DNA from: a virus
Reading direction: 5' to 3' (one strand)
DNA length: 38,962 bases
IMG/VR virus record: IMGVR_UViG_3300025585_000091
Span: 1 to 38,962 of that record
Positions 728-35,828 of the stretch are shown one piece after another (within the stretch, counting starts at the first letter, position 1; each line of letters starts with the position of its first letter). The translations under genes and the position numbers were made by a program. The notes beneath the pieces are model-generated. The model saw nothing but the letters and a program-made list of their open reading frames with translations, was not told the origin of the DNA and ran no database searches.

Positions 728-1078
728 ATGGAAATCAATAGTGAACTGTTTGCAGCAGCAGAAATGCACGACACTAAGATTCAGATTCATCTTGTGTCAT
801 GGTATGTTGACCCCGTTGAAGATGCCGAACAGGGCAGCGAACGATACGGAATCTATATTGGCACCGAAAACGGTGGCACCCTTGTTGCAGAGTTCGGTGC
901 TGACGTACCGTTCGATGTGGCCGTGTCCGTGTTCGTAGCGATGGGTTTCTCCACCATCGTGGACGGCAGCCCCCGTGCGGCACAATCGGTGCAGTCTTTG
1001 ATGGACGACACAGATGAGACAGATAGTAGTAAGTTGGTTATCCCCGACACAGCGACCGTGGAGCGTATCACAAAGTGA
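728..1078 (+). CDS. Hypothetical protein (116 aa)
   Basis: Start chosen at ATG 728 after the purine-rich stretch AGAGAGAGAG, which can serve as ribosome-binding site; the frame is open further upstream but into the tRNA. No signal peptide or membrane segment is visible, and the C-terminal 25 residues are acidic (DDTDETDSS). Its stop overlaps the GTG start of the helicase gene by four bases, so it is translationally coupled to it. I do not recognise the family; the position suggests a replication accessory role, which is inference only. Confidence 0.75.
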   Translation: MEINSELFAAAEMHDTKIQIHLVSWYVDPVEDAEQGSERYGIYIGTENGGTLVAEFGADVPFDVAVSVFVAMGFSTIVDGSPRAAQSVQSLMDDTDETDSSKLVIPDTATVERITK

Positions 1079-2166
1079 CTGACACCGAACAGATGCTTGC
1101 GAAACTTGCAGAGTTTGAACAAGCAAACGTGTATGAACATTACCGTCCGCTGCGAGATGCAGCGGACGAGTTCATTTCATGGGCACGCACACCCAGCGAA
1201 CGAGTCTACACAGGTATCAAAGAGTTGGATGATGCGATGCGTGGCACCGCCCCATCCGAACTGACCATCATCCAAGGGTTTACACACAGCGGCAAAACGT
1301 TGCTGGTTACCGAACTAATCCTCAACAATCCTGACACACCGCTAGTGCTGTTCACACCCGACGAGACTCGTCCGCTTGTGCTGACGAAACTGACTAGCGC
1401 GTTGCATGGTGTGAGTGCTAAGGATTTGGAGCAGCGTATCCAACAGGATGATAAAACTGCCCGTGACCTGCTTATCTCTACCGCTGAACGGTATGCGAAC
1501 CTTGCTATCTTTGATGAGTCCGTATCGGTTGTCGATATGGATATCATGATGGATGAGGCATGCCATGCTTTCGGTCAGAAACCTATGGGCATCATCTTCG
1601 ACTATGCTGAACTGTTGGAAGGGCCAGATGATGTGAAGGCAAAGATGACCGCACTGAAAGCGTGGGGTAAGCGGCAGCATGTCGCCATGTTTGTGTTGCA
1701 CCAGACTTCCCGAACCTCAGGTTCGGGTGGACGTAAGGTCGGTATCGACAGCGGTGCATACGGTGGTGAGCAGCAGGCTACCCATGTGATTGGTGTGCGG
1801 CGCAAGAAGTATATGCACATGGCGATGCTGGCATTGCTGGAGGAAAAGATTGCTAACTCTAGTAATCCGAAAGCGATTGAGGAATACAAGTCCCGTATCC
1901 GTCAGATCGAAACTGTGGACATGCCCCGTGACATGGATACGGTTACGGTTTCGTTGGTGAAGAACAAGCGGCCACCATGCGATCTTGTTGATGATATTGA
2001 TTACAAGATTGATTTGGGCACGGGTCGTGTGCGTCGTGTGGAGAATGTGGTGGACGAGTACGGTAACACGGTGCGTGTATCGAAGGCGGCTGCGTTGGAT
2101 TATTTGCGGCAGCGTAGACAGGTGCCGATTGTTGAGCAGGCTATGACCGAGTTGGAGGATTTCTGA
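1075..2166 (+). CDS. DnaB-like/RecA-fold replicative helicase ATPase
   Basis: A 363-residue P-loop ATPase. Walker A GFTHSGKT is at 68-75, a Walker B-like strand GIIFDY at 172-177, and a conserved HQ (209-210) with the following TSR...G segment resembles the DnaB C-terminal core motifs. The N-terminal region (1-45) is short, unlike the full DnaB primase-interaction domain. In the family such proteins unwind DNA ahead of the fork; here the next gene is a primase, so a two-gene primase-helicase module is likely. It starts at GTG, overlapping the previous stop, and its own TGA overlaps the ATG of the primase. A recombination ATPase (DnaB/KaiC type) is the alternative. Confidence 0.82.
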   Translation: MTDTEQMLAKLAEFEQANVYEHYRPLRDAADEFISWARTPSERVYTGIKELDDAMRGTAPSELTIIQGFTHSGKTLLVTELILNNPDTPLVLFTPDETRPLVLTKLTSALHGVSAKDLEQRIQQDDKTARDLLISTAERYANLAIFDESVSVVDMDIMMDEACHAFGQKPMGIIFDYAELLEGPDDVKAKMTALKAWGKRQHVAMFVLHQTSRTSGSGGRKVGIDSGAYGGEQQATHVIGVRRKKYMHMAMLALLEEKIANSSNPKAIEEYKSRIRQIETVDMPRDMDTVTVSLVKNKRPPCDLVDDIDYKIDLGTGRVRRVENVVDEYGNTVRVSKAAALDYLRQRRQVPIVEQAMTELEDF

Positions 2167-3062
2167 TGGAACTAGACACACTACGATTTGCCCACATCTT
2201 CACAGGCCGAGTCGATGCTTACGGCACCGACACAGGAGGGGCAGCATGGAAGCCCGTCACCATCCACACCTATGAGCGACACCTGAACGGTGTCGAACCC
2301 ATCGGTATCTACCCGATCATCCACCACGATGACGAATGCTGGGTGCGTTGGGGATGCTGCGACATTGACACTGGTGACTGGTCGGAAGCATTTATGCTTG
2401 CGACCGCTCTCACAGGTATGGGATTCAAACCGTGGGTGGAACGTTCCCGTTCCAAGGGTTGGCATGTGTGGGTGTTCGTATCCCAATGGATGCCTGCATC
2501 TGTGATGCGTCGGGCACTAAAGGTTGCATACGCTGCGATTGATTTGCCTGCTAAGGAAGCGAACCCTAAGTCGGAGAAGTTGCGACCTAACCAGTTGGGT
2601 AACTATGTGCGACTCCCCTACAAGGCTGCTGCTATCATGCCGTCAGAACGGCAGGTGTTCACCGAAGGTTGGAATCCATCCTGTGATGGGCAAACTGTTT
2701 CTGTCAGAGACTTTCTGGCTATCCCTGATAAGGAACTGTTCACCGATATGGGTAAACTTCAGCATTGGGCATCGAAATGGTATGAGCCTGTGCGACGCTC
2801 AGTCAATATTGTTTCTGACCCTGACGCAGATGTGCTGTGGCTGGCTGATAGACTGCCAGCAGATTGGCGTAAGGTATGGTTGAGCGGTGAGGTGCGTGAC
2901 CGCTCTGCGACGTTTGTTGCTATGGCCTATGCTATGGCTAAGCGTGGCTGGCAACCACAGGAAGTGTTTGACCTGCTGTGGGGTTGCCCGTGGAACAAGT
3001 ATCGTGACCGACCCAACGGTGAAGTGTACGTTCAAGACATTGTGGAAAGGGTGTTCTCATGA
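2166..3062 (+). CDS. Archaeo-eukaryotic-type (AEP/Prim-Pol) primase
   Basis: A 298-residue protein with the signature of the AEP superfamily: a catalytic DID pair (66-68), the basic SKGWHVWVF strand (96-104) equivalent to the SG(G/Y)HLW motif, and GNYVRLPY (145-152) equivalent to the conserved G-N-R-P segment. It should synthesise primers at phage forks. A C-terminal helical part (about 225-298) may be a PriCT-like accessory domain. TGA/ATG overlap on the helicase side and a four-base overlap with the next gene show tight coupling. No DNA polymerase is found nearby, so either the host polymerase extends these primers or this enzyme itself has polymerase activity. Confidence 0.8.
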   Translation: MELDTLRFAHIFTGRVDAYGTDTGGAAWKPVTIHTYERHLNGVEPIGIYPIIHHDDECWVRWGCCDIDTGDWSEAFMLATALTGMGFKPWVERSRSKGWHVWVFVSQWMPASVMRRALKVAYAAIDLPAKEANPKSEKLRPNQLGNYVRLPYKAAAIMPSERQVFTEGWNPSCDGQTVSVRDFLAIPDKELFTDMGKLQHWASKWYEPVRRSVNIVSDPDADVLWLADRLPADWRKVWLSGEVRDRSATFVAMAYAMAKRGWQPQEVFDLLWGCPWNKYRDRPNGEVYVQDIVERVFS

Positions 3063-3911: not shown

Positions 3912-4299
3912 GTCACACAATTTTACGTTAGACCCATGTGCATTGGCTGCTAGTGCTAAGTGTTCTAACTGGTTCGGCCCCGACCACCCTGACGTTACGA
4001 AACGTGACGGGCTAGTGTTAGACTGGGCTGACCATGCTGACGGTGGGGTCGTGTTTATGAATCCACCCTACGGTAGAACTATCGGTGTGTGGGTGGCTAA
4101 GGCGGCTGCTACTGCTGCCGCTGGAACCACTGTTGTTTGTCTGCTGCCTGCTAGGACTGATACAAGGTGGTTCCATGATTACTGCATGGGACACGAAGTA
4201 GAGTTCCTTCGTGGTAGACTAAAGTTTGGGGAAGCAAAGAATGCTGCCCCTTTCCCATCTATGGTTGTTGTGATGCGTCCGATTGAAGGAGATGAATGA
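3826..4299 (+). CDS. Phage DNA N6-adenine methyltransferase (Dam-like)
   Basis: A 157-residue methyltransferase with the phage Dam-type pattern: DEWATPQQFYNHL (15-27) preceding LDPCA, and the catalytic NPPY at 79-82 characteristic of amino-methyltransferases. It should methylate adenine in phage DNA, a common means of escaping host restriction. The start ATG 3826 has AGGAGA eight bases upstream; an internal ATG pair at 3847 is the alternative. It overlaps the RusA gene by 86 bases. No matching restriction enzyme is present, so it is a lone methylase. Its target site cannot be read from the sequence. Confidence 0.87.
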   Translation: MDKRTTTMMFSSVTDEWATPQQFYNHLSESHNFTLDPCALAASAKCSNWFGPDHPDVTKRDGLVLDWADHADGGVVFMNPPYGRTIGVWVAKAAATAAAGTTVVCLLPARTDTRWFHDYCMGHEVEFLRGRLKFGEAKNAAPFPSMVVVMRPIEGDE

Positions 4300-28119: not shown

Positions 28120-29832
28120 TCACACCAGCGGAGACAAACCCTGATTTGTTTTGTTCCTCTTATCCAACATACGCTCATACCAAGCAAACGAACCCTTCAC
28201 ACGGGCAGCATCACCCTGCCCGTGCGGCAACTCAGTCCTAGCATACTTCAAACCCTGCACAGCCATACCCAACGACATAACACAGTCATCATGCGGACTA
28301 CCAGACATACGGCCACGCACATCCCGAGTGAACGTCCGCAACTCATGCAACGTCTTTTGATGCGGCATATTCTCCACATCACGCAACCAAGCAGCCAACT
28401 CATCCACCAACAACGGTTTCGACGTATGCGTCGTCAACCAACCCATCGACTCCAACGGCCTATCCTGCCGTTTCGTAAACGTCCTACGCTTATACAACCA
28501 CTTATACTTAGAACGCTGGAGAGCCTTCAAAACAGTCAAACCATGATTGTTCACCTCAGGAACAATCAAAGCATTCCGATAAAACCAGCCGATAGCAGGC
28601 AAAACAGTTTCACCAAACACATCAGGATCAACACGCCCATACCACACCGCCACAGGCTGACCAGTATTCACACACAACACCCAAGCCACCGTAGCATCAC
28701 CATGCTCCAAACCCTCAGCAATATCAGCACCAATCGTATACGTCCACTTATCCGCATGATTCGGAGGATCAAACACAATAAACGGGCCACCCTCTACCAA
28801 CGTCACCTCAGACGACTTGGCACCAGAAATAGTATAAGCCGTAGCATCCGTCGCCTTAAAGCGACGGATATTCACCTGATCGAAAACAGGATTACCAGAC
28901 CCAATAAACGCCTCAACAGGATCAGAAGGATACTCCTGATGCAACTGCCACAACTTGCCAGCCAACTCCTTAGCCTTAGCATCATACCAATCCTGCGAAC
29001 GTTCATCCACCGCAGACCACGGAAAAAACACAGAATGAAAACCATTCTCCCCCGACTCAGCCTGCAACCACATGTCATGAAAAAACGTGCCCTCACCATT
29101 CGCCGTACTTAAGCCAATAGCACGACCACCCAAATCAATCGTCGGCTCCACAGAAGCCCACGCAGACTCAGGATTAGGAAGAAACGCCCACTCGTCCAAC
29201 ACCACCAAAAACAGCGACTCACCACGAGCAGGATCATTATTCGACGGCAACGACTGAATCTGCGAATCATTATCAAACGTCATAACCAAACGAGTACGAT
29301 CCAACAACTTAGGGCCACGCAACCGCACCCACTCAGGCAAACCACGAAACGCATACCGAGTCTTAGCCAACAACGCAACCGACTCACGCTCAGTCCTAGA
29401 AAGCATCACAATATGACGATCAGCCCAACCAAACGCACACCACAACGTAAAAGCCGACACCAACGTAGAAAACCCGATCTGACGGGCCTTCAAACAAATA
29501 TTACGACGATACTTAATCCAATCCCAAGCCACCTGCGACTGGGCATCCCGCAACCTTAGCGGGATGCGCCCACGGCCAGGAAATTTGATACTAAGATTAT
29601 CCTCACAAAACTTGGTGAAACCATCATGAAAAACCCTGACAACATCGTCAGGCAACTCAGGCAACGTCCAATCCACCACAACCTGAGGAAACCACGTTTT
29701 CCACGCAATCTCCTGCTCCAACTCCGTAATCGACCAAGTAACCTTCTGCTTACGCTGACGCTTAATTTCATTAGCAGAACGCACCACCTCACGCACAGGC
29801 GTAGCCCGAGCATCCGAACCAGAAGGCATCAA
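28120..29832 (-). CDS. terL: Terminase large subunit
   Basis: A 570-residue packaging motor. Walker A-like KARQIGFST (115-123), Walker B LVVLDEWAF with D213-E214, and coupling motif STANGEGTFF follow in order. The nuclease half has a first acidic strand TIGADIAEG, later VPEVNNHG, and SPHDD near the C-terminus supplying metal ligands. It should translocate DNA into the head and cut it. Start ATG 29832 overlaps the small subunit stop. Confidence 0.92.
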   Translation of the reverse strand: MMPSGSDARATPVREVVRSANEIKRQRKQKVTWSITELEQEIAWKTWFPQVVVDWTLPELPDDVVRVFHDGFTKFCEDNLSIKFPGRGRIPLRLRDAQSQVAWDWIKYRRNICLKARQIGFSTLVSAFTLWCAFGWADRHIVMLSRTERESVALLAKTRYAFRGLPEWVRLRGPKLLDRTRLVMTFDNDSQIQSLPSNNDPARGESLFLVVLDEWAFLPNPESAWASVEPTIDLGGRAIGLSTANGEGTFFHDMWLQAESGENGFHSVFFPWSAVDERSQDWYDAKAKELAGKLWQLHQEYPSDPVEAFIGSGNPVFDQVNIRRFKATDATAYTISGAKSSEVTLVEGGPFIVFDPPNHADKWTYTIGADIAEGLEHGDATVAWVLCVNTGQPVAVWYGRVDPDVFGETVLPAIGWFYRNALIVPEVNNHGLTVLKALQRSKYKWLYKRRTFTKRQDRPLESMGWLTTHTSKPLLVDELAAWLRDVENMPHQKTLHELRTFTRDVRGRMSGSPHDDCVMSLGMAVQGLKYARTELPHGQGDAARVKGSFAWYERMLDKRNKTNQGLSPLV

Positions 29833-30338
29833 ACCACCCTACGCTTCGCAAGTTCAATAGCAGCCGCCTCAGCCCGCTCAGCCACAGCCAAATCCCTAAC
29901 GCGCTGCAACTCCTCCAACGACAAATCAGAAATCGAATCCTCAGCAATCTCATCAGCCACATCCAACAAATCCGAAGAACGACCAAACTGACCCATCACA
30001 CCAGAAGCACGCATCCACACCTCAGCATACTTCACATCACGCTTCTCCATCGCCACATCATACACCATATTCAACATCGCCTGAACACGCTCAGGCGAAG
30101 AAGCATTCTGCAACGTATAAAACCTGATCGCCTCCTGAACCCGAGCATCCTTCGACCACTTCCACACAGCCTGCTTCGTAACACCCAAAACCTCACACAA
30201 CTCCACCAACGTCTGAATCTCACGCTCAGCAGGCGGCGTAGCCGCCCACACCACATACGCACGCTGACGAGCATTCAACTCACGACGCTTACGCTCCTGA
30301 ACCTCAGAAGTAGGACGACCACGCTTCACATCAACCAT
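29829..30338 (-). CDS. terS: Terminase small subunit
   Basis: Start ATG 30338 (MVDVKRGRPTSEVQERKRRE); a TTG two codons upstream also fits. 169 residues with a HTH at about 50-75 (TLVELCEVLGVTKQAVWKWSKDARV), a central helical oligomerisation region, and a C-terminal coiled coil. The KRGRP at the start is AT-hook-like. It recognises the packaging site; first gene of the leftward operon. Preceded by two G+C-rich hairpins. Confidence 0.82.
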   Translation of the reverse strand: MVDVKRGRPTSEVQERKRRELNARQRAYVVWAATPPAEREIQTLVELCEVLGVTKQAVWKWSKDARVQEAIRFYTLQNASSPERVQAMLNMVYDVAMEKRDVKYAEVWMRASGVMGQFGRSSDLLDVADEIAEDSISDLSLEELQRVRDLAVAERAEAAAIELAKRRVV

Positions 30339-30392
30339 AAACAAACCACCTCACAATAAACCCCAGAAACGTAACAACCATAAACAAAACAA

Positions 30393-30495: not shown

Positions 30496-30804
30496 AAAGT
30501 CGTAACAACACAAACACAAAAAAGAGCAGCCCATTGACCACCCACAACACGTTCCCTGTCTCCACCTACGTTCCGACAGGAACACAAACAAACACCCAAA
30601 CATAACCCCACAGCGTAACAGCAGGTCACAACACATGCAACCCTCTGACCAGCACATTCACAAACACACAAACACAAAACTTAACCAAAAACATACCAAA
30701 AATTTACCTCCCGTTAACCTAACGTTCACCCAACATACACGGATATGTACGGAACCATCTAGGAATCATACAGGTTTGAGGGCGGGTGGGGGGCCGTATA
30801 CCCC

Positions 30805-30873
30805 GTTAGGCTTCCTTCGCATGCCGTGTTAGGCTGACTTGACGGGCGATGTTAGGCTGACCTAACGAACATG
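30805..30873 (+). repeat. Three iterons, 23-bp period
   Basis: GTTAGGCT occurs at 30805, 30828 and 30851, exactly 23 bases apart; the last two share GTTAGGCTGACYT. An inverted partial copy (CCTAAC) lies at 30861-30866. Regular spacing near two helical turns is typical of initiator or repressor binding arrays. Confidence 0.72.
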
Positions 30874-30879
30874 TGTTCG
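30866..30879. promoter_or_regulatory. LexA (SOS) box 1
   Basis: CGAAC-ATGT-GTTCG, a perfect match to the Gram-positive/actinobacterial LexA operator CGAAC-N4-GTTCG, flanked by A and A. It directly follows the third iteron. Confidence 0.8.
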
Positions 30880-30880
30880 A

Positions 30881-30894
30881 CGTACATGCGTTCG
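30881..30894. promoter_or_regulatory. Imperfect LexA box
   Basis: CGTAC-ATGC-GTTCG, one mismatch from the LexA operator, starting two bases after box 1. Tandem placement suggests cooperative binding; alone it would be weak evidence. Confidence 0.5.
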
Positions 30895-30896
30895 AT

Positions 30897-30910
30897 TGAC
30901 TGGCCAGTCA
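30897..30910. promoter_or_regulatory. Perfect 14-bp palindrome TGACTGGCCAGTCA
   Basis: A perfect inverted repeat followed by further GTCA/TGAC copies up to about 30935 (AGTCAGTCAGGCTGACTC, CCAGTCAGTCAA). Looks like a multi-site operator for an unidentified dimeric protein, between LexA boxes. Confidence 0.55.
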
Positions 30911-30953
30911 GTCAGGCTGACTCACCAGTCAGTCAACACGCTCGGCACACGAC

Positions 30954-30967
30954 CGAACATACGTTCG
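30954..30967. promoter_or_regulatory. LexA (SOS) box 2
   Basis: CGAAC-ATAC-GTTCG, perfect consensus, 18 bases before the first DnaA box. Confidence 0.82.
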
Positions 30968-30985
30968 ATGGAGTGTCCTGTCTGG

Positions 30986-31016
30986 TTGTCCACAGGTTGT
31001 TCACAGGTGTGGATAA
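30986..31016. promoter_or_regulatory. DnaA box cluster, putative replication origin
   Basis: Three 9-mers within 31 bases: TTGTCCACA (30986-30994), TTGTTCACA (30997-31005) and TGTGGATAA (31008-31016, the complement of TTATCCACA). These are the actinobacterial and classical DnaA boxes. A fourth near-match, TGTGGATAT, is at 31103-31111. The cluster, beside iterons and an A+T-richer tract, looks like a host-DnaA-dependent origin. Confidence 0.72.
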
Positions 31017-31021
31017 GTGGT

Positions 31022-31035
31022 CGAACGTGTGTTCG
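31022..31035. promoter_or_regulatory. LexA (SOS) box 3
   Basis: CGAAC-GTGT-GTTCG, perfect consensus, five bases after the third DnaA box, so LexA and DnaA binding could interfere. Confidence 0.8.
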
Positions 31036-31194
31036 TGCACAAGCGCACAAGCGCCGCTGTAGTGCGTTCTGCGGTTTCTGGGCACCCTAGTACCGTGCAC
31101 CCTGTGGATATTCGATCCTGAGCGAAATCACTGTCCGTGGTCGGTTTGGCCACTGTGGGTGGTTTGTTTCTGACAGAAATGTCAGGTTTGCGCC

Positions 31195-31301
31195 CGTGTA
31201 CGCGCGTGTGCGCGCCCGCGTGCGCCCGCGTGATCCTAAGACAAGGTGCCAGCGTGCGCATGCACGCACGTGTACGCGTGTACGTGCGCGTCGCGCGCGC
31301 G
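31195..31301. other. Alternating purine-pyrimidine (Z-DNA-prone) tracts
   Basis: 31195-31215 alternates for 21 bases; 31252-31291 alternates without a break for 40 bases (GC/AC/GT steps) and is followed by (CG)5 at 31292-31301. Such sequences flip to Z-DNA under negative supercoiling. Composition differs sharply from the rest of the genome. Confidence 0.75.
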
Positions 31302-31318
31302 ACCCCCATCTGTCGGAG

Positions 31319-31447: not shown

Positions 31448-31696
31448 ATGAGGGGAACAGTGAACGAACAGGCTACGGTGCAGGTCGGTGGCGGCACGCT
31501 GACGTTGGGCGGTTGGTATGTCCATGCGGGCTATCCTGAGCGGAGGATGCAGGTCGGCTACCCTGTGGGCAGCGATACCGTCATGGGGCTGCTGTACTGG
31601 CGCAGTGCCGACGGGGATGGCGTGTACTGGGGTGCGGATCGTTGGGTATCCATCGGTGCGGATGACCTTCAGTACATGTTTCTGATCGTCGGGTAG
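31448..31696 (+). CDS. First early gene, small protein (82 aa)
   Basis: ATG 31448; GTG 31460 has the better ribosome-binding site (AGGGG five bases upstream) and would give 78 residues. The protein is beta-rich with VMGLLYWRSADGDGVYWG near 46-63. The phrase MG-x-x-R-x-(T/A)DGDG recurs in the products of 31811 and 32317, so these look like diverged paralogues. First gene downstream of the control region, so likely expressed at once on infection; such genes often counter host functions, which is inference. Confidence 0.7.
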   Translation: MRGTVNEQATVQVGGGTLTLGGWYVHAGYPERRMQVGYPVGSDTVMGLLYWRSADGDGVYWGADRWVSIGADDLQYMFLIVG

Positions 31697-33560: not shown

Positions 33561-34931
33561 ATGGCAAGGCCGATTATTCCCGCAAGAGTACGCCGACTGC
33601 ATTTCGGCGGTCATCTGGAACTCATGTCCCGTGGGGGCGTGTGGATTCCCTACAATCTGGTGGCACACGCTGTGTCGGAGCGTGCCATCAAGATGGCATG
33701 CGAGCGTGGCTACCTCATGCCGAATTCGCAGTGGCCGTCGTCCCCATTCGACTACGACCTGACGGTACAGTCGGAACAGAACACCGACACCCCTGCCCCG
33801 CAGGTCGATGACGACAACGATTCTTTCGGCCCGAAAGATTCTGAGTCCGATGCCGAACAGGTAGAGTCGTCATCATCGTCGTCGTCCGAATCGGACTCCG
33901 ACTCCGACACCGAGACACAATCCGAATCCGAATCCGAACAGCAGAACAAGGAGAATGCTGAGATGAGCATGGAAGATATTGTTCGCCGTATCGCTGGCGA
34001 ACTTGACGGTACCCAACAGGAGGGTATCGACGCTGCGTTGGCCGATGTGCTAGCCAACGTGGACAAGCGGCTGGAAGATTTCCAACCGAAGTCGGACACC
34101 ACCAACACGCTGGTGCCGATCATCACTCGGGTCGAAATCTCTCTGCCCGAAACAACCATCACCACCGACGGCGTGTTCCACATGGCAATGCCCGACCTGC
34201 TGTTCAACATCCAATTGGGCACCCACACCTACCTGCCCGGCTCGCCGGGCACGGGCAAGTCGCATGCTGCGGGGCAGGCTGCTGAGGCTTTGGGTTGGAA
34301 GTTTGGTTCGATATCGTTCGGCCCGACCACACCTGAGTCCCGTCTGGTTGGTGGCATGACGGCTGATGGTTCGTTCTTTGAGCCGATGCTGTTGAAGTTG
34401 GTTCGGTTCGCAATGGAGAACCCTGACTCGGGTGCTGTGATGTGTCTGGATGAGATGGACAACGGGCATGCTGGTGTGCAGGCTACGCTGAACAGTCTGC
34501 TGGCTAACGGCTGGATGACGGCACCGAACGGTGACCATCTGACTATCGGCAATAACCTTGTGTTCATTGCTTGTGCCAACACTTACGGTACGGGGCCGAC
34601 TGCCGAATTCTCTGGCCGAAACAAGTTGGATGCTGCCACGCTGGACAGGTTCGCTTACCTGCCGTGGGAGATTGACTTGGGGTTGGAGGAAGTGCTGGTT
34701 CGTCGCTTCTTCTCCGACGACCAGCAGTATCTGGCTTCGCACTGGCTGGATGTGTGGCGTTCGGCCCGTCAGAACGTGGCTACTCACGGTCTGAAACTGT
34801 TCGTCACTCCCCGTGGTGCTCAGGCTGGTGCCCGTATGGTGGCGGCTGGTCGTACTGTGGAGAAGTCGCTGGCTCAGGTGCTGGGCAACAAGGTTCCTGC
34901 CGACCAGTGGTCGAAGATCAATCCTCTCTGA
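33561..34931 (+). CDS. CobS/MoxR-like AAA+ ATPase with acidic linker
   Basis: A 456-residue AAA+ protein. An N-terminal domain (1-70) is followed by a Ser/Asp/Glu-rich disordered linker (about 78-132), then the AAA+ core: Walker A GSPGTGKS (227-234), Walker B MCLDEMD (294-300), sensor-1 Asn340 in ACANTYG, and an arginine finger in LDRF (R363). CobS-type and MoxR ATPases act with a VWA partner to remodel a target; the next gene encodes a likely VWA protein, so the pair is read as one system. Cobalamin chelation is unlikely in a phage. The palindrome TTTCGGCCCGAAA lies in the linker coding part. Confidence 0.83.
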   Translation: MARPIIPARVRRLHFGGHLELMSRGGVWIPYNLVAHAVSERAIKMACERGYLMPNSQWPSSPFDYDLTVQSEQNTDTPAPQVDDDNDSFGPKDSESDAEQVESSSSSSSESDSDSDTETQSESESEQQNKENAEMSMEDIVRRIAGELDGTQQEGIDAALADVLANVDKRLEDFQPKSDTTNTLVPIITRVEISLPETTITTDGVFHMAMPDLLFNIQLGTHTYLPGSPGTGKSHAAGQAAEALGWKFGSISFGPTTPESRLVGGMTADGSFFEPMLLKLVRFAMENPDSGAVMCLDEMDNGHAGVQATLNSLLANGWMTAPNGDHLTIGNNLVFIACANTYGTGPTAEFSGRNKLDAATLDRFAYLPWEIDLGLEEVLVRRFFSDDQQYLASHWLDVWRSARQNVATHGLKLFVTPRGAQAGARMVAAGRTVEKSLAQVLGNKVPADQWSKINPL

Positions 34932-34958
34932 CAGAAACAACTACGAAAGGAAACTGTC
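34925..34958 (+). promoter_or_regulatory. Junction element between AAA+ and VWA genes
   Basis: TCTCTGACAGAAA (34925-34937) spans the stop codon of the ATPase. GACAG (34930-34934) can pair with CTGTC (34954-34958), placing the Shine-Dalgarno AAAGGAAA in the loop before ATG 34959. Confidence 0.5.
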
Positions 34959-35828
34959 ATGCAAACAGCAGTAGGTAAGGGGCTGGGCAAGGAACAGTCC
35001 CGCAAGTATCACCTGTGGGAATTCGATTCGCTGCGGGAGGTTGTCGATTACGCTCGCAACCATGAGCACCATCAGTCGTCTGACCGTCCGCTGGCTAGTC
35101 ACTACAATCTGACTAACAGTTTGTCGGATGCCGCCGATCTGGCAATCGACGGCTGGCACGATATCCGTAACAAGGTGGACGGATATTTGGAGCCGATGCG
35201 TGAGAAGTTGGGCAAGATTCTTTCGACAGAAACTGTCCGTGTTCACGATATGATCGGGGTCGAACCCGATATCGACCGTTACATCATGGGCGAGATTGAG
35301 TGCATGATGGATGACGTAATGGTTGAAGCACCTAAGGATGGTAAGGTGTTCACCATGATGGTCGATGTGTCGATGACATGGGATAACAGTGCCGACGATA
35401 TCGCTAAGCGTGGTGCCACGCTGTGTGCTCTGGTCGAATCGTTCATCATGCTGGGTTACCAGTTGGAACTGTGGTCAGAGTTCACGGTGCGTGGGTCGGA
35501 AACGCAGGACATGGCTACTTGTCTGGTGCGTGTCAACAAGGCTGGCGAACCAATCGACATTGACTGCATGATGTTCGCACTGGGTCATCCCGATTACGGT
35601 CGCCGTATCCTGTGGGGTTGGGGTGAAGCCAACACCATTACCCGTGATAAGATGGGTTTCAATGGCGGCTATTACGGTTTGCACCGTAACGGTTCGCACT
35701 TCATTGACCGTATCGGGGCGAGCACTTCGGTGTCGTTGGATGGTAATCGTTCGATGACTGCCGACCCTATCAAGTGGATTACCGACCAGTTGGAGATGCA
35801 GGGTATCTTCAACACTGACAGTTTCTGA
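34959..35828 (+). CDS. VWA-like partner of the AAA+ ATPase
   Basis: A 289-residue protein. MMVDVSMTWDNSADDIAKRGA (about 133-153) is MIDAS-like, D136-x-S138-x-T140, followed by a helix; LELWSEF is the next central strand, as in VWA folds. The N-terminal part (HLWEFDSLREVVDYA) resembles a family of phage proteins annotated as DUF7192/CobT-like, from memory. It likely recruits a substrate to the ATPase. Ends in TTC TGA within the palindrome TTTCTGACAGAGA (35822-35834). Confidence 0.7.
   Translation: MQTAVGKGLGKEQSRKYHLWEFDSLREVVDYARNHEHHQSSDRPLASHYNLTNSLSDAADLAIDGWHDIRNKVDGYLEPMREKLGKILSTETVRVHDMIGVEPDIDRYIMGEIECMMDDVMVEAPKDGKVFTMMVDVSMTWDNSADDIAKRGATLCALVESFIMLGYQLELWSEFTVRGSETQDMATCLVRVNKAGEPIDIDCMMFALGHPDYGRRILWGWGEANTITRDKMGFNGGYYGLHRNGSHFIDRIGASTSVSLDGNRSMTADPIKWITDQLEMQGIFNTDSF

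Follow-up and report, generated by a model that had tools for sequence, protein, structure and literature searches.

Bacillus thuringiensis phage GIL01 (Tectiviridae) is repressed by the LexA protein of its host, which acts at dinBox1/1b together with the phage protein gp7 (PMC4551915). The Streptomyces LexA motif is tCGAAC-N4-GNNCGa (PMC9380542). TTGTCCACA is a DnaA box of Mycobacterium tuberculosis and Streptomyces, and DnaA binding at the chromosomal origin (oriC) of S. coelicolor is inhibited by AdpA (PMC4285127). A literature search, with subscription papers outside its reach, returned no paper that joins DnaA boxes, LexA, the SOS response, a phage genome and a replication origin. Here we describe a phage control region in which DnaA boxes and SOS (LexA) boxes stand side by side, found in the IMG/VR virus record IMGVR_UViG_3300025585_000091 (positions 1 to 38,962; hereafter the window, i.e. 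the whole stretch of 38,962 nucleotides that was analysed). The pairing is real and conserved. On balance, and judging from sequence, we favour the view that the region is addressed by host DnaA and host LexA, and that it is probably a replication origin.

The DnaA boxes are as follows.

30986 to 30994, plus strand: DnaA box 1, TTGTCCACA, one of the high-affinity boxes tabulated for M. tuberculosis and S. coelicolor (PMC4285127)
30997 to 31005, plus strand: DnaA box 2, TTGTTCACA, starting 11 bp past box 1
31008 to 31016, minus strand: DnaA box 3, TTATCCACA, inverted, starting 11 bp past box 2
31103 to 31111, minus strand: near-match DnaA box, ATATCCACA

The sequence-only reading that preceded this analysis had placed three boxes, two direct and one inverted, at 30986-31016 with a near-match at 31103, and its positions and letters are correct. 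Boxes 1-3 are separated by gaps of 2 bp, giving a start-to-start pitch of exactly 11 bp. Short motifs may group by chance, and loose DnaA patterns are indeed frequent across the window (TTWTNCACA with one mismatch occurs 62 times against 73 expected, i.e. without enrichment). However, in 300 dinucleotide shuffles of the window three TTRTYCACA never fell within 31 bp of each other, nor within a span as wide as 300 bp, and the control region holds 3 boxes where 0.14 are expected. Moreover, the cluster recurs in relatives and, against a scrambled control, in unrelated phages (see below), leaving a chance grouping most improbable. The cluster is above chance and helically phased, two of the properties sought in a DnaA origin.

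Four SOS boxes accompany the cluster.

30866 to 30879, no strand assigned: SOS box 1, CGAACATGTGTTCG, perfect (motif as in PMC9380542 and PMC4551915)
30881 to 30894, no strand assigned: SOS box 2, CGTACATGCGTTCG, with one mismatch, starting 15 bp past box 1
30954 to 30967, no strand assigned: SOS box 3, CGAACATACGTTCG, perfect
31022 to 31035, no strand assigned: SOS box 4, CGAACGTGTGTTCG, perfect, separated from DnaA box 3 by 5 bp

The perfect motif CGAAC-N4-GTTCG occurs only 3 times in the whole 39-kb genome, always inside 30866-31035, whereas the mean per shuffled window is 0.02. The SOS boxes at 30954 and 31022 bracket the DnaA cluster at distances of 18 and 5 bp, respectively; the earlier description of the two elements as interleaved is therefore fair, though no DnaA box overlaps any SOS box. 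The boxes are of the Gram-positive/actinobacterial type, which is probably that of the host.

All viral contigs were scanned for CGAAC-N4-GTTCG with TGTGGANAA at most 30 bp after it and, as a control, with the dinucleotide-matched scramble TGGTGANAA in place of TGTGGANAA, similar loci being grouped. The scan returned 101 stretches in 60 groups, compared with 30 stretches in 24 groups for the scramble. At least two extra DnaA boxes lay within ~300 bp in 19 of the 60 groups but in 0 of the 24 scramble groups, and extra DnaA boxes averaged 1.65, whereas the expectation for the same loci was 0.14. An extra SOS box was present in 16/60 groups and in 0/24 scramble groups; the case for SOS boxes being enriched close to DnaA arrays is drawn from such extra-box counts, with a control that scrambled the DnaA box only. 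Across the 60 groups, 30 of ~62 pairs of same-orientation DnaA neighbours no more than 60 bp apart showed a pitch of 11 or 12 bp, which would fit a DnaA filament along one face of the DNA. The largest arrays hold 12 (L158), 10 (L140) and 9 (L186) boxes, one locus (L116) alternates as SOS box - DnaA - DnaA, and genes for phage terminase, helicase, primase, polymerase and ribonucleotide reductase adjoin several of the loci. Striking arrays of SOS and DnaA boxes can be seen on the unrelated phage contigs L116 (reverse strand 570-690), L121 (4437-4533), L140 (2855-3220), L158 (13153-13440) and L186 (reverse strand 3924-4150).

The same composite was sought in bacterial genomes, where 32 matches were found, few with extra boxes and several at lexA promoters. 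Upstream of lexA in three bacterial loci (L253, L255, L263) the arrangement is LexA box - DnaA-like TGTGGATAA - LexA box. Single TGTGGATAA matches are therefore ambiguous, since promoter elements, or DnaA sites that belong to the SOS regulon itself, may account for some of them. Taken further, TGTGGATAA beside SOS boxes might mainly be a promoter element (GGATAA[CT] -10) of LexA-controlled promoters and not a DnaA site, as the three lexA promoters would suggest. However, this would leave TTGTCCACA and TTGTTCACA in the window unexplained, together with the many-box arrays of 11-12 bp pitch in both orientations, and a consensus scan passed no promoter-like pair at the boxes of the window. We regard this explanation as quite improbable.

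Conservation was assessed over the control regions of eleven clade members, window included. The nearest annotated genome, MW202803.1 (Caudoviricetes sp. ct52p938, deposited as a podovirus), shares the layout of the window (60% identity in the terminase large subunit, 62% in the helicase) and has a DnaA-box cluster within the corresponding control region, but no SOS boxes there. Both elements are present in 6/11 members (window, G004, G005, G009, L044, L045), SOS boxes only in 1/11 (G006) and DnaA boxes only in 1/11 (MW202803.1). Their numbers vary: G004 has six DnaA-like boxes flanked by SOS boxes, ten in all, G005 many DnaA boxes and five SOS boxes, and G009 five SOS boxes with the DnaA boxes ~300 bp off, across the clade landmark given below, whilst L044 and L045 each have a single SOS box that lies a few bp away from near-boxes of the form TGTGGATAT. 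Such near-boxes are also present in G005 and MW202803.1. DnaA and LexA sites are 3-18 bp apart in three members; in two others the distance is tens to 100 bp, and in one it is ~300 bp. In 6 of the 7 DnaA-bearing members the first DnaA box lies 182-336 bp to the right of a conserved GTATAC landmark. The DnaA and SOS elements are thus conserved in place yet separable.

30763 to 30800, minus strand: clade landmark, AATCATA (TATGAT on the minus strand, a putative leftward -10) plus GGTGGGGGGCCGTATACC

GGTGGGGGGCCGTATACC with AATCATA stands beside the terminase operon in nearly all members and is a candidate leftward late promoter or cos site.

The genes around the control region were then considered in relation to an origin. 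The two ends of the window share 143 bp, apart from a few mismatches right at the edge, and the map is therefore complete and circular at ~38.8 kb. The leftward arm carries the structural genes, from the terminase small subunit (30344) to 8.4 kb, and the rightward arm the early genes, from 31448 across the circle junction to 8.2 kb. The stretch between them (30.35-31.45 kb), which holds both the DnaA cluster and the SOS boxes, is the sole divergent control region of the genome.

29829 to 30344, minus strand: terminase small subunit, which opens the leftward structural operon (phrog_2538, E 0.00095; syntenic with MW202803.1)
28120 to 29832, minus strand: terminase large subunit (phrog_2)
31448 to 31696, plus strand: first open reading frame of the rightward early operon, 82 amino acids, no family
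1075 to 2166, plus strand: DnaB-like helicase (RecA-like part), on the rightward arm past the circle junction (PF03796, E 6e-11)
2166 to 3062, plus strand: archaeo-eukaryotic-type primase (AEP-TOTE; PF22548, E 1.6e-17)
30662 to 30721, no strand assigned: least stable 60-mer of the control region, in the top 0.5% of the genome; possible unwinding element

Gene absence was searched for in the window and six relatives (seven genomes), with positive controls detected. No DnaA C-terminal domain, no Peptidase_S24, no integrase and no ParA-type partition ATPase (PF13614), the mark sought for a phage-plasmid, was found in any of the seven, and HTH_3 gave nothing above the cut-off. No CI/LexA-type repressor came up in this search, which covered Peptidase_S24 and HTH_3; the phage may have a repressor of another type. 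A LexA, DnaA, integrase or ParA encoded by the phage itself was accordingly rejected in each case, the searches being empty.

The sequence-only reading had proposed that replication starts here from host DnaA. In its favour, the boxes are real, lie in a divergent control region, are kept in relatives and recur phased in unrelated phages, and the phage carries a helicase and a primase without a recognisable initiator. The skew switch that had been put forward as a check is present but confounded with gene direction. Several observations are neutral or count against the favoured reading. The GC-skew minimum falls at ~30.74 kb, ~245 bp left of the DnaA boxes and beside the leftward promoter motif AATCATA, and the local GC- and AT-skew minimum is at the landmark (30763-30800) or just left of it. 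The GC-skew minimum is at the same motif in most relatives too, including G006, which has no DnaA cluster, and skew therefore tracks transcription at least as well as replication. Because in most members its minimum goes with the leftward promoter motif and the direction of the genes, GC skew was rejected as proof of an origin. The least stable 60-mer is ~270 bp from the DnaA boxes, farther than usual. Moreover, 3/11 members (G001, G008, L050) have neither element which, with the lack of a DnaA cluster in G006, means that host DnaA is not a clade-wide requirement at this site; members without boxes must replicate some other way. A sigma-70 consensus scan found no good promoter overlapping the SOS boxes, such a promoter being rejected as a candidate, and so gave no site for the promoter that LexA would repress. 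Lastly, a terminase alignment search of 84,980 species genomes gave no prophage relative.

DnaA might instead act as a transcription factor, or be titrated, with the boxes tuning an early promoter and replication beginning elsewhere. The position of the boxes between divergent operons and their absence from several clade members are in keeping with this. However, the arrays of unrelated phages, with up to 12 phased boxes in both orientations, are origin-like rather than single regulatory sites, and no other initiator gene was recognised. We therefore hold a purely regulatory role to be rather unlikely and retain the origin as the preferred interpretation.

Under that interpretation, the control region at 30.35-31.45 kb would be read, in a circular or circularising double-stranded DNA phage, by two host proteins. 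Host DnaA would bind the phased array at 30986-31016 and probably open the DNA for the phage DnaB-like helicase and primase, making the region the replication origin. Host LexA, on the four flanking SOS boxes, would silence the lytic programme until RecA triggers its cleavage, so that the phage could do without a CI repressor. LexA probably acts mainly on early transcription; repression of the kind seen in GIL01 (PMC4551915) is the most economical role for it.

It had also been suggested that replication could be blocked by LexA bound beside DnaA. LexA at 30954 and 31022 would then occlude or distort the DnaA array between them and make replication itself SOS-inducible. The DnaA array does have SOS boxes to its left and right in the window, G004 and G005, the gaps are 3-5 bp in the window, L044 and L045, and units of LexA-2..4bp-DnaA are repeated in unrelated phages (L116, L121, L169). 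AdpA at S. coelicolor oriC is a precedent in principle (PMC4285127). However, the spacing is not conserved, ranging from a few bp to ~300 bp (42-100 bp in G004, ~300 bp in G009), each element is also found without the other (SOS boxes in G006, DnaA boxes in MW202803.1), and in the window the two do not overlap. LexA may only repress early transcription. Of the earlier claim, the adjacency of the boxes holds whilst the blocking is weak: direct occlusion of DnaA by LexA is possible at gaps of 2-5 bp, but conservation does not require it, and we consider such gating unlikely. It is similarly doubtful that many actinobacterial phages carry a composite of this kind, with an origin fired by host DnaA under the direct control of host LexA, LexA cleavage licensing replication with no phage-encoded switch protein.

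Further repeats were observed around these elements. Three GTTAGGCT(GAC) copies with a 23-bp pitch occupy 30805-30862, and similar TTAGGCNNNCCTAA repeats occur in G001, G004, G008 and G009 irrespective of SOS or DnaA boxes; both are possibly iterons or activator sites. An alternating CG/CA-rich tract ending in CGCGCGCGA lies at 31190-31308, with counterparts to the right of the DnaA boxes in L044, L045 and MW202803.1 and shorter ones in G004 and G005. A 13-bp palindrome, TTTCTGNCAGAAA (0-2 mismatches), is scattered along the rightward arm (31167, 31433, 31789, 33501, 34925, 35822, 36632, 2698 and 8224) and is replaced in relatives by other palindromes (TTTATGNCATAAA in G008, TTGCAANNTTGCAA in G001, TTTCAANTTGAAA in G009). 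These resemble the stoperators of a phage-specific regulator.

The control region gave no match by megablast or blastn against phage records. With respect to the host, the window encodes at 33561-35828 an AAA_5 (CobS/MoxR-like) ATPase and, after it, a DUF7192 protein. Nearly all relatives of the DUF7192 protein come from Mycobacterium and Gordonia phages. These relatives, together with the types of the DnaA and LexA boxes, point to an actinobacterial-type host.

The recurrence of paired DnaA and LexA sites in many unrelated environmental phages suggests that replication or gene switching may be tied to the damage alarm of the host. In the LexA-controlled phages known so far, it is transcription that is coupled to the SOS response; LexA operators paired with host-DnaA origin arrays would, if the pairing works as proposed, couple replication licensing to it too. 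The signature is moreover a simple way to find phages that lack a classical repressor and yet may respond to DNA damage, which is useful in uncultured bacteria, where induction tests are hard.

Phage lambda encodes its own initiator, O, and its origin is not known to carry SOS boxes. The window resembles lambda ori/pO in having host DnaA sites near what would be a phage early promoter and origin (PMC3985674), but no initiator is recognisable in it. It resembles the oriC of Streptomyces and Mycobacterium in the use of TTGTCCACA, in the clustering of boxes and in AT-rich DNA within the same intergenic region. It differs from them in that there are just three or four boxes, neither dnaA nor dnaN lies alongside, and the array is set between phage genes and flanked by SOS boxes. 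The likeness to GIL01 lies in CGAAC-N4-GTTCG SOS boxes within an early control region and in the lack of a Peptidase_S24/CI-type repressor, with LexA as the proposed lytic repressor. In contrast to GIL01, no equivalent of gp7 was identified, the genome is that of a tailed phage with terminase and portal on a circular map of ~38.8 kb, and there are four SOS boxes (up to ten in relatives) with an adjoining DnaA array.
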